This document shows, piece by piece, positions 49,138 to 56,420 of a stretch of DNA of 64,000 bases. The first letter of the stretch is position 1. Every line of letters starts with the position of its first letter. Below the pieces are notes generated by a model. The model saw nothing but the letters and a program-made list of their open reading frames with translations, was not told where the DNA came from and did not search any database. This DNA comes from Marvania coccoides (Eukaryota > Chlorophyta > Trebouxiophyceae > Chlorellales > Chlorellaceae): assembly GCA_963854735.1 (NCBI GenBank), contig OY978109.1:186001-250000 (forward strand). Reading direction: 5' to 3'. Both the position numbers and the translations under genes were made by a program.

Positions 49138-49707
49138 ATGAACCTTATCATGTGGGTGTGGGTGTGGGTGTTTGTGGGTGGGTGGGGGAGAACGGGGGGG
49201 GTAAGTTGGGGGTGGGGGGTGGCAAAGGCATTAATTGATCATTTTGCTGATTTCAACGTCGTATCACCGCCGCCACTGGCAGTGGCTTCTGGAGAGCCCC
49301 AAAATGGCAGAATGCCAAGCTTTTAATACCCCCCACCTTCATTTTTATGTGTCTTGCAGGGCTGGGGCTGTGTCTCCGGCCGCAGCATCCTTCAACAACC
49401 AGCTCCCCCCGTCCACCCGCTGCTGTTGCCCAGCGAAGCCGTTAGCGTAGGTGAAGATCCCATCCTCGTGAACGCCCCTCTGGCAGAGCAAACGAGGCCC
49501 GCCTCTGGTCGCTGTCCAGATATCAACAATAACGAGGTTAGCCCTTCAACTCTCATGCCGCCTCAAGACGCCTGCCGGGAAGTATTTTGGCTGCGGGCGC
49601 AGGGTGTTCGCAACTATACCTGCACCCTGGAGGGTCCCTCTGAGTTCTCCACGTCCTACGTCATGTTAATTGGCAATTTGTTCACCGGTGACGGCTTTTA
49701 TAATGAA
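49138..49707 (+). pseudogene. truncated tandem paralogue of the 52.4-kb secreted gene
   Basis: Two exons are readable: 49138-49200 (signal peptide MNLIMWVWVWVFVGG) and 49360-49707. The second exon aligns with the intact gene at 52373-53515: SEAVSVGEDPILVNAPLAEQTRPASGRCPDINNNEVSPSTLMPP here against SPVSVPRDPILVFAPLAQITRP, CPPVDNNAVSPATLMP there. It ends GDGFYNE at a GT donor, matching RGFINE of the other copy. The two downstream exons (those starting AKLPQLDIF and DTYGALLDRS in the intact gene) are not found before the next paralogue. Instead, a LINE 3' end lies at ~50008-50780. Introns differ between copies: this copy has one after the signal peptide and lacks the one after DPIL. It is either a broken gene or a gene with a shortened 3' end. 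Confidence 0.65.
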
Positions 49708-49989
49708 GTACGCATGCGCACGGGCAGCATGATTATTTTTTTGCCGCATTTATCATTGCTTCCCTCTATACGACTTGGGCGTGCGGCTGAGAGAGAGAGA
49801 AGTGGCAGGAAGACAGGGCGTGCTGACGCTGTTTAAGATGTTATTAATGATAAAAGAAGCAGCGCGGCTCTAACAAATTTGAACCCAACCGCTCGCTTGA
49901 TGCGTTCCATTGCTGTTATTTTCGTATTAGAGTGTGCATTCATGTGTGCATATGTGCGAAATAACATTAAAACTGGATAAATAGCAAAT

Positions 49990-52372: not shown

Positions 52373-53515
52373 ATGCCACTCGTCAAGCTGCTCGCCGTTT
52401 TAGTGGCCTGGATTTGCCTGGCTGCCGGGCACTTCCAGAACCCCCAGCTCCTGCCCAGCAGCCCAGTTAGCGTTCCACGAGATCCCATTCTGGTAGGTTG
52501 ATTTTTGTGGGGTTCGTCGTATAATTTTGCTCTCTTTACAATTCAAATATACCCTCTCTGTTGCTGGATGCTGCCCCCCATGTAGGTCTTTGCTCCGCTG
52601 GCCCAAATAACCCGGCCCACCACCCCATGCCCTCCCGTAGACAACAATGCAGTCTCTCCTGCAACGCTGATGCCCATCGAAGGCCCTTATAGGGAGCTAT
52701 TTTCCCTTGAAGTTTCCGCTGACCTCGATAGCTACTCGTGCTTCGCAGACGGGCCTCTGATAGTAAACGGCACGGTTTATGTGCATGGTGGCGGGTTTTT
52801 GGGCCGCGGTTTCATAAACGAGGCAAGTAATCGATCGTCATGCCCGTTTTGTTCATTTTCTTCATTTTACGGAAGCGCATTTGTGGAGGCCTCAACACTT
52901 ATTTTCATTCTTATTCCTACGCGCACGGCTTTCACTAGCGTGCCAGTCTGCTACGAGGCCTTAGTTGCCTTTTTGTGTGGACGTTAAACATTGTATTGTG
53001 TATGTATGTATGTATGTATTTATATTTTAGCGCCGACTACACGAACATTTTTTTTTAATAATTTGGTACAGGCCAAGCTTCCACAGCTGGATATCTTCAC
53101 TTTGGATGGTAGGAGGGCTGGAACTGCGGTAGTAGACTCTGATAGAGTCACGTTTGATGCCCTCGGGACCAACCCTCCAATCAATGCCAGCGACCCTTCT
53201 CCGCTTTCTGCAGCAGCTCGAAGCTTGACCTGGAAGCGCTGGCCCATATTTATAATCAGTGGGGAGCTGCTGCCTTGGGCATGCTGGATTACTCAGACGG
53301 CAAGTTTTTTTATTTTTCTTTGCTGTTTTTGATAGCTCAATAACACAAAGAAAAAATTACCCGCAGTTTTCTTAATAATGATTAACTGTGTGCAGGACAC
53401 TTATGGAGCTTTGCTGGACCGCTCTACAAACATCAGCTGGCCGCCGCCGACTTGCCAGCGCGGCCCAGATTTCATGCTCATTTTCAGGGCGAAGTACAAA
53501 TTTTGGAGCTGCTAG
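52373..53515 (+). CDS. secreted protein of an unknown family, intact tandem copy
   Basis: Four exons (52373-52492, 52586-52822, 53072-53299, 53396-53515) give 234 residues. The signal peptide is MPLVKLLAVLVAWICLAAG. The mature protein carries few cysteines (PCPPVD, SYSCFADG, PWACWIT, PTCQRG, and the terminal Cys), several sequons (NGT, NAS, NIS) and beta-rich stretches such as YRELFSLEVSADLDSYSCF and PLIVNGTVYVHGGGF. I do not recognise a domain. Introns 2 and 3 both start with GC donors (GAG|GCAAGT at 52823, ACG|GCAAGT at 53300); the phases only work with GC, not with the nearby GT. Intron 2 also holds a LINE 3' end. It follows the truncated paralogue at 49138-49707 in the same orientation. 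Confidence 0.72.
52938..53020 (+). mobile_element. solo LINE 3' end with (GTAT)n tail, intronic
   Basis: The sequence from gtgccagtctgct through ccttag, ttgtgtgg/ttgtgcgg and acnttaaac to a (GTAT)n tail matches 50697-50779, with about 80 bp shared. It sits in intron 2 of the intact secreted paralogue. No protein-coding part of the LINE remains here. Confidence 0.7.
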
Positions 53516-54178: not shown

Positions 54179-56420
54179 TTAGAAAATGGCAACCCAAAAA
54201 GCGATGGAAACAAACGCCGCCGCAACCGCAGTTCCCCTTCCAGCTCCAGCAGAGGGTGGGGATGCCGGCGGTGGCGCTGCATTCACTGGCGCGTTCGGAG
54301 CTGCCCCTGGGGTCTGCGGCAGAGCTTCTCCAGCATCCAGCACTTGGATTTTCCATCCTAATTTTTGATGCACGGTGCACTGATAGAACACCACATCCAG
54401 CGTGTCTTCGTCTGGAGTCCAGGTAAAATACGCAGGCTTGTCTGCAGTGCCTGCAAGAACAAATTAAAAAAATGTTAGAAGCTCATGTGGTTGGCTTGGG
54501 CAAATATGCTAATTAAAAGGGGGATTAGATGCTGAAAGAAGACCCACCGAATGTGGAGGAGTTTCCTGCCAGCACTCGTTCCCCCTGATAATCGACAAGA
54601 CTGCCGCCACCGATGATCGAGTCGGTGATATAGACGGGGTGGGTGGGCCCGGACTCGACGACCCATGTGTAGGTGGTGCCACGGCGAACCACAAGCACAG
54701 GGCTCTCGTTTCCGTTCACCCAGAGACTGTAACCCCAAGCAGGAGGGTTGGGATAATTTTTATTGGCTGGAGAAAACAGGGGGAGCGCGATGAATGAGAA
54801 CTGGACGAAAAGTAATCTACACGAGTGGCACACTTACACCCAATGGTGACTTTAAATTCAGTAGGTCCGTCAAGAGTGGCCACCGCAACAATAGAGGTGC
54901 TGGGGCCTGGCGCAGGGGCGGCGCCAGCAGCGTTTGCGACAATCTTGCGGCAGATATTGCCGCTGCTGGCCCCCAGATCCAGCCTGATTGGCTGGTATTG
55001 CCCTGCATTAACCGATATTATTTCATTTGTGCCTGGCAGCGTCAGCCTATGGTAGAGAATAACGGGGACGGTGGCGTTAGACCCCTCGCTGATAGGACCC
55101 ATAGCGAAAACAGAAAACCGGGAGCCGTCGGTGGGCCACGCGTTGTCCTTATTGTCAGTCGGCCCAAGGGGACGCGTCAGCAAGACGCTGAGGGTGTCTC
55201 CCACTTTGTTGCACGCCACCAGCTTTGCGGAGGTTGTCGGCACAAAGGGAGTGGTGCCCGCGTAGTCAGGGCACGCCCCAAGGCCCGAAGAAAAATCGCA
55301 CTGCGCCTGGTCAGAGAGGTGGTAGTTGAGAGCAAAACACTCGGTGCCCACCATGCCGACAACCACGACGTCGCTGCCCACCATCTCCGGTCCTGTAGCC
55401 CCCGCTGGAGAGTACCCAAACGCCATCCAGCGATTTCCATCGCCAGGGCGGCCTTCAAGGCCCATGGACAATGTGGAATTATCGTCAACAGACCAGTACA
55501 CGTTAAAATATCCAGGGATGAGCTCCATGCAGTTGGGGAGAGATTGAATGGAAGGAAGGCGAGGGGGGGAGGGGCTGGAAGGAGGGGAGACGGCGGGAGG
55601 GCTGGCTGGCTTTGCAGGCGCTGGAGAAGGCGAGCTGACTGGTTTTGGGGACGGCTCAGGCACAGGCTCAAGCGATGGACTTTTGTTCTCGACATCGGGA
55701 GATTCAGATGCGGGTGGCTCTTCGATCGCCTGGGGGCCTGCTGAGAGCTCCACGTGGCCCAAATCGGCGAAGAACTCTTCGCAATAAACGCTGATGCACT
55801 TAACATTGCTCCAGTCTACGTCAGGGAACAGCGTGACTGTGAGCTCGCCGCCCGAGAATTTGTCCACCAGCTGCTCGCTGGAGATGCGGACGCCAGACTT
55901 CTTGAGTACGGCGGGGTCACAGGTGGGCGCCGCCCACCAGTAGACTTGCGGGGCAAAGCCGTCGTAGCTGCAAATTGTGTTGAAGGATTTGTTAGTCGGT
56001 GAAAAATGTGTTAGCGCACTACTAGCCCAAGTAGGAAAACAAATAAGAGCGAACAGCGTGTATTTAGCTGCATTCGTATTGATTTATTGATTTCTAATTT
56101 TTTTTCTCACCTGAAATCAGTAGCTGTCAACTTGCAATCGCCTGCCGAGACGCTGCCGGCAATCTCGTGCTCCAGGCCATCAAGGTCTCCAGAGAATATT
56201 GGACAAGCGCATCTCGCTGCAAATAAATTTTACATACTGTTATGTGTTAGAATTTCTCTTATGCTTCATCATTCACGAGCAAGGCCCCGTCGGTTGAAAA
56301 CATCCGCGTTGGATGGGATGGAAATGTCGAGCAGTTGTGGAGGGAGACCCGGTACGCACCTGGTTTGATGGAAAGGAAGGCGAACAGTCCCAAAAGAAGA
56401 TAACGAGGAAAGATAGGCAT
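54179..56420 (-). CDS. DM13-DOMON-cupredoxin-like secreted redox protein, probably GPI-anchored
   Basis: Five exons (56420-56360, 56216-56111, 55967-54838, 54766-54548, 54450-54179) give about 595 residues. Order: signal peptide (YLLLGLFAFLSIKP); DM13 domain (~28-125) with AGDCKLTATDFSYDGFAPQV, YWWAAPTCD, VRISSEQLVDKFSGGELTVT, CISVYCEEFFADLGHVEL; a Ser-Pro linker; DOMON domain (~195-340) with YFNVYWSVDD, GDGNRWMAFGYSPAGATGPE, MVGSDVVVVG; a further beta region to ~430; a cupredoxin-like domain (~433-540) with NPPAWGYSLWVNGNE, RGTTYTWVVES, THPVYITDS, then FYQCTVHQKLGWKIQV; and a Pro/Ala linker with a hydrophobic tail (GTAVAAAFVSIAFWVAIF). The HPVYI His and the C-x-x-H pair match type-1 copper ligands, with Leu where the axial Met usually sits. 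Plant DM13-DOMON proteins end in cytochrome b561; none is present here. Extracellular electron transfer is inferred. Confidence 0.85.

Follow-up and report, generated by a model that had tools for sequence, protein, structure and literature searches.

A DM13, DOMON and cupredoxin-like protein of Marvania coccoides as a candidate extracellular haem-to-copper relay

We analysed a 64,000-nucleotide stretch of the Marvania coccoides genome (contig OY978109.1, positions 186,001 to 250,000), hereafter the window, to which coordinates without a contig refer. A gene on its minus strand, at 56420-54179, encodes a DM13 domain, a DOMON domain and a cupredoxin-like domain in one polypeptide. With a probability of roughly one half, we read this window protein as a secreted, probably glycosylphosphatidylinositol (GPI)-anchored electron-transfer protein of the cell wall that would act as a haem-to-copper relay; fold and ligands are computed, and from them we infer metal binding and function. 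A DM13-DOMON-PF25489 chain with a membrane anchor is an architecture already known from Knickkopf and Skeletor, so the protein joins an existing kind. What is new here is the pattern of metal ligands, which suggests, as a prediction from sequence, that the family is redox-active and that Knickkopf is its dismantled branch.

Domain architecture and predicted fold

All three domains were identified by whole-protein Pfam scores above the curated cut-offs. DM13 (PF10517; residues 33-130, positions 55745-56181, split by intron 2 at 56110-55968) scores 49.4 bits against a cut-off of 25 (E 7.9e-13), and DOMON (residues 210-346, 55097-55507) scores 44.8 bits against 32.7 (E 1.8e-11). The cupredoxin-like PF25489 (At5g54830-like; residues 425-544, 54335-54862, encoded by exons 3-5 and interrupted by introns 3 and 4) reaches 100.7 bits against 27 (E 7.3e-29). 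The best relative of the window protein is 56% identical across 97% of the searched stretch; the domains are therefore not chance matches, which their scores above cut-off also exclude. A sequence-only reading of this DNA had named the same three domains in one polypeptide at exactly this locus and had placed the third at residues 433-540, close to the Pfam limits. The motifs it picked out, THPVYI (with His475) and QCTVH (with Cys530 and His533), are present, as is Leu536 at the axial position. In a six-frame search of the 22.46 Mb genome (15 contigs) that ignored introns, the locus is the only DM13 match at a threshold of E 0.001 and the only PF25489 locus.

The same reading had made its case depend on a structural match of the third domain to cupredoxins, and such a match was found by way of the relative P0007: in the predicted fold of that protein, PF25489 is a beta-sandwich that aligns with solved cupredoxins. 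The DOMON fold, in the structure comparison, matches the cytochromes of cellobiose dehydrogenase and pyranose dehydrogenase. By this computation PF25489 is a predicted cupredoxin with His, Cys and His ligands and an axial Leu that would not coordinate the metal.

The gene model was predicted by joining exons. Splicing and translation give five exons and an open frame of 595 residues running to a TAA stop, with introns 1-4 of 143, 143, 71 and 97 nucleotides, all GT-AG. Exon 1 (56360-56420) holds the start codon and a hydrophobic signal peptide of about residues 1-24 (Kyte-Doolittle 15-residue mean 1.67), which runs into exon 2 and whose cleavage site was read by eye. DM13 starts in exon 2 (56111-56216) and ends in exon 3 (54838-55967), which also carries a Pro-rich linker, DOMON and the beginning of the cupredoxin-like domain. 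Exon 4 (54548-54766) encodes the first half of that domain, including His475, and exon 5 (54179-54450) its second half (Cys530, His533, Leu536), a Pro-rich spacer, the tail and the stop. The tail (about residues 575-595, 54182-54244) contains a hydrophobic 15-residue stretch with a Kyte-Doolittle mean of 2.49 behind a small-residue, Pro/Ala-rich spacer. This arrangement fits a GPI signal, by which the window protein is probably anchored.

Predicted metal ligands and the Knickkopf branch

We aligned the window protein with 158 relatives, 120 of the Knickkopf type and 38 outside that set, and counted residues in scorable rows. The relatives compared exclude land-plant proteins, among them At5g54830 itself, whose copper ligands we presume may be degenerate. 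P0039 was counted among the 38 despite its 46% identity to P0021 and its Asp at the DM13 Cys column. The Knickkopf-type set (P0040-P0158 and P0021) comprises the best 120 of 310 insect matches; only P0051 and P0073 are named knickkopf and most members carry the automatic name Skeletor isoform B or C, so that the label is drawn from the two named proteins, their length and P0021.

The two predicted haem b ligands, Met251 (55382-55384) and His362 (55049-55051), which correspond to the Met/His pair coordinating haem b in cytochrome-type DOMON domains, are invariant in scorable relatives save for one Val: Met occurs in 33/33 rows outside the Knickkopf-type set and 118/119 within it, and His in 36/36 and 120/120. 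Cys118, the conserved DM13 cysteine (55781-55783), is found in 28 of 29 rows outside the set, P0039 having Asp. For the predicted type 1 copper site, the first His (His475, 54639-54641) is present in 32/34 of these relatives (Gln in P0002, Asn in P0039), the Cys (Cys530, 54377-54379) in 31/32 and the second His (His533, 54368-54370) in 31/32; the one exception at both of the latter columns is P0035, a protein without PF25489. The axial position (Leu536, 54359-54361) is Leu in 29 and Ile in 3 of the 32. The full set of five metal ligands occurs in 27 of the 38; of the 11 others, P0002 definitely lacks one, and the remainder are gapped in at least one ligand column. The window protein has the spacing C-x2-H-x2-L, without the usual axial Met of type 1 sites. 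Rusticyanin, with its C-x4-H-x4-M spacing, differs in this respect; it and its Met148Leu mutant are also bacterial, single-domain proteins that have no sequence match to the cupredoxin-like domain of the window protein.

In the Knickkopf-type set both cysteines are lost while the haem Met and His are retained. The copper Cys is found in 0/118 rows (Ser in 117, Leu in 1) and the DM13 Cys in 0/113 (Asp in 105, Asn in 6, Glu in 2). The second copper His is kept in 84/118, and the axial residue is Met in 111/118. The window protein departs from this pattern of Ser for the copper Cys and an acidic residue or Asn for the DM13 Cys, since Cys530 and Cys118 are both present. It shares with insect Knickkopf the order DM13-DOMON-PF25489, the haem ligands and a membrane-anchored C-terminus, but has one DM13 where Knickkopf has two. 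Knickkopf is described as having two DM13 domains and one DOMON, with anchorage by GPI or by a transmembrane end, and as carrying a conserved C-terminal region, some 200 residues long, without relation to any well characterised domain (PMC4140639). Knickkopf may at some point have been annotated as plastocyanin-like; a search of the open-licence literature, which leaves most subscription journals outside, found nothing linking knickkopf with plastocyanin or cupredoxin.

Insect Skeletor, represented by P0032 (Nylanderia fulva) and P0034 (Anoplophora glabripennis), has DM13, DOMON and PF25489 by Pfam and retains every ligand: the DM13 Cys, the haem Met and His, the copper His, Cys and His, and the Leu. 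Its cupredoxin domain is 33-34% identical to that of the window protein, from which it differs in its length of about 1350 residues, its two or more DM13 motifs and long extra stretches. Because Skeletor keeps all ligands while Knickkopf has lost the copper Cys and the DM13 Cys and kept the haem ligands, the family probably started out as a redox relay, from which Knickkopf derives as a copper-less form. At slightly short of even odds, we would extend this to an ancient one-chain extracellular relay of thiol, haem b and axial-Leu type 1 copper, retained across a range that takes in algae, a chytrid and Skeletor, whether or not a cytochrome b561 feeds it. Knickkopf would then be a paralogue dismantled as a redox protein by the joint loss of both cysteines, its C-terminal region a former copper protein, and the older shared task oxidative work on a chitin-like wall. 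Knickkopf and Skeletor are both required for insect cuticle; if their C-terminal region is a cupredoxin whose copper site algae and Skeletor have preserved and Knickkopf has broken, a redox role becomes testable, and the short algal form is a convenient single-DM13 version of this type of protein.

The same comparison bears on a different, rather unlikely account, in which the window protein organises the wall matrix in the manner of Knickkopf, binding a chitin-like polymer and ordering or protecting it with metal sites that are structural or vestigial. Its domain order is that of Knickkopf, which is reported to organise and protect chitin and to have affinity for colloidal chitin (PMC4140639). 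The genome also contains chitin-related genes (a GT2 frame with a QRRRW stretch, CBM_14 matches, a GH18-like frame and a lytic polysaccharide monooxygenase (LPMO) with CBM_14), but the presence of chitin is here deduced from genes. The window protein, like Skeletor, has kept both cysteines that Knickkopf lost, and five conserved metal ligands would be unexpected in a pure scaffold.

A proposed electron relay and its competitors

As a haem-to-copper relay, the window protein would take up electrons at the DOMON haem, either from wall ascorbate or from the separate DOMON-b561 proteins of the genome. From the haem the electrons would pass downhill to the copper and then to an acceptor in the wall, perhaps a copper enzyme or else cupric or ferric ions; the lone conserved Cys of DM13 may take part. 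The cupredoxin would bind a type 1 copper that is three-coordinate, with Leu in the axial position, and has a fairly high potential. Laccases with an axial Leu or Phe have functional type 1 sites at 470-790 mV (PMC6487685), and by analogy with these the axial-Leu copper would be the more oxidising site, which is why we draw the flow from haem to copper. The protein would correspond to the outer half of a DM13-DOMON-PF25489-DOMON-b561 chain whose membrane part has gone and whose place is taken by a lipid anchor, and the DOMON-DOMON-b561 proteins of the genome could feed such a lipid-anchored relay. A precedent for the anchored haem domain is AIR12, a plant cytochrome b described as an extracellular, GPI-anchored DOMON with a Met/His haem site (PMC10784552); unlike the window protein, it consists of a single DOMON and has neither DM13 nor cupredoxin.

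Several observations weigh against this relay. P0002 is a clear exception, with Gln at the first copper His. A search of the PDB with the sequence profile of the third domain returned no cupredoxin, its best matches being ribosomal S19 at E 0.2, so that the kinship to copper proteins is carried by the fold. The protein folded was the relative P0007 and not the window protein, and the metal sites are predicted from fold and residues. The choice of electron donor, of acceptor and of the direction of flow is guesswork, and the GPI anchor is deduced from the tail. Finally, Knickkopf, the best-studied relative, works in chitin organisation and is essential without the copper Cys, so the role of the family need not be a redox one.

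Two further accounts invoke the copper enzymes of the wall. The sequence-only reading had proposed that the protein donates electrons to an LPMO, which we regard as improbable. Cellobiose dehydrogenase is an established LPMO donor, and the resemblance of the DOMON fold to its cytochrome and to that of pyranose dehydrogenase speaks for the proposal, as do the LPMO genes in the window (13642-12924, minus strand) and on contig C4; neither linkage nor co-expression supports it. With its high potential, moreover, a copper with axial Leu would be ill suited to reducing the LPMO copper. The haem could serve instead, but would have to do so alone, leaving the copper domain unexplained. Somewhat more improbable still is that the cupredoxin carries copper rather than electrons, loading wall copper enzymes such as LPMO and oxidases or taking up surface Cu(I). 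A cupredoxin fold with a Cys/His site and the LPMO genes of the genome would suit such a carrier, but the C-x2-H motif with an upstream His is a closed type 1 pattern and not a Met-rich transfer site, and haem ligands in the same chain favour electron transfer.

Long forms, cytochrome b561 and genomic surroundings

Long forms of the family (DM13-DOMON-PF25489-DOMON-b561, the plant At5g54830 type; P0001, P0002, P0012, P0013 and others) share the first three domains and their order with the window protein, with up to 56% identity over 97%, and then have a second DOMON, which lies in sequence between PF25489 and a membrane cytochrome b561, where the window protein ends in a GPI-like tail. The sequence-only reading had taken the copper module to stand in place of cytochrome b561. 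This did not hold: 13 of the 34 PF25489 proteins found also have b561, so the third domain is no substitute for it, and the window protein simply does without the second DOMON and b561. It follows the Knickkopf/Skeletor plan in its domain order, lack of b561 and presumed membrane anchor, departing from it in having one DM13 and not two, and is no CYBDOM (DOMON plus b561) protein, the window containing no C-terminal cytochrome b561. A tblastn search of the window found neither a second DOMON nor b561 (best E 0.034), whereas the same queries detected the genome's own b561 genes; a hidden b561 exon within the window was rejected on these grounds.

In the tree, from which P0021, P0024 and P0028 are absent because their matched pieces fell below the length limit, the window protein lies in a starred, well-supported clade of 10 rows, 5 of them with b561. 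The presence of b561 has therefore changed repeatedly, with the qualification that some rows are fragments. There are 8 changes on the tree against a shuffled mean of 10.4, a soft count since several rows without b561 are fragments and the three proteins dropped out. Tails like that of the window protein occur in P0003, P0008, P0018, P0020, P0025 and the insect protein P0021, while P0004, P0006 and P0007 end directly after the cupredoxin-like domain. A truncated gene model, with a second DOMON and b561 missing from the end of the protein, is very improbable: the nearest full-length relatives (P0001, P0010) are long forms and half of the clade has b561, but the working tblastn queries found neither domain in the window, the six-frame search showed no second PF25489 locus, and the GPI-like tail recurs in the first five proteins just listed. 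Relatives of algal kind by name include Micractinium tetrahymenae, Prasinococcus and a Chrzof1 entry. In the 1423-residue P0030, cupredoxin-type His and Cys motifs occur several times along the chain, which suggests repeated PF25489 domains.

At least three DOMON-DOMON-b561 genes are present in the genome, two adjoining on C4 and one on C1. The C4 pair (L010/L011, C4:1048414-1053063) is near-identical and probably a recent tandem duplication. A PF03142 search found a GT2 frame on C11 with a QRRRW stretch, a mark of chitin synthases; the search is a loose one, in which 4 of 14 control genomes also match. There are four CBM_14 matches in the genome. Three CBM_14 repeats on C8 adjoin a GH18-like frame (L021/L023, C8:174843-175833) with a DxxDxDxE stretch read by eye, and this is likely a chitinase. 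An LPMO with CBM_14 lies on C4 and is the only copy listed by the PF03067 genome search. The AA15-like LPMO that had been reported elsewhere in the window was located at 13642-13577 and 13439-12924 on the minus strand, with an N-terminal His after a signal-like stretch, and is 39% identical to the C4 protein (E 1.7e-34). AA15 with CBM14, and AA15 in green algae, are on record (PMC5823890). Among the genes within about 12 kb of the locus, no link to the window protein was seen. Two similar frames on the plus strand (49327-49833 and 52586-53329; …NNxVSPxTLMP…), without a Pfam family, adjoin the locus and may be a paralogous pair.
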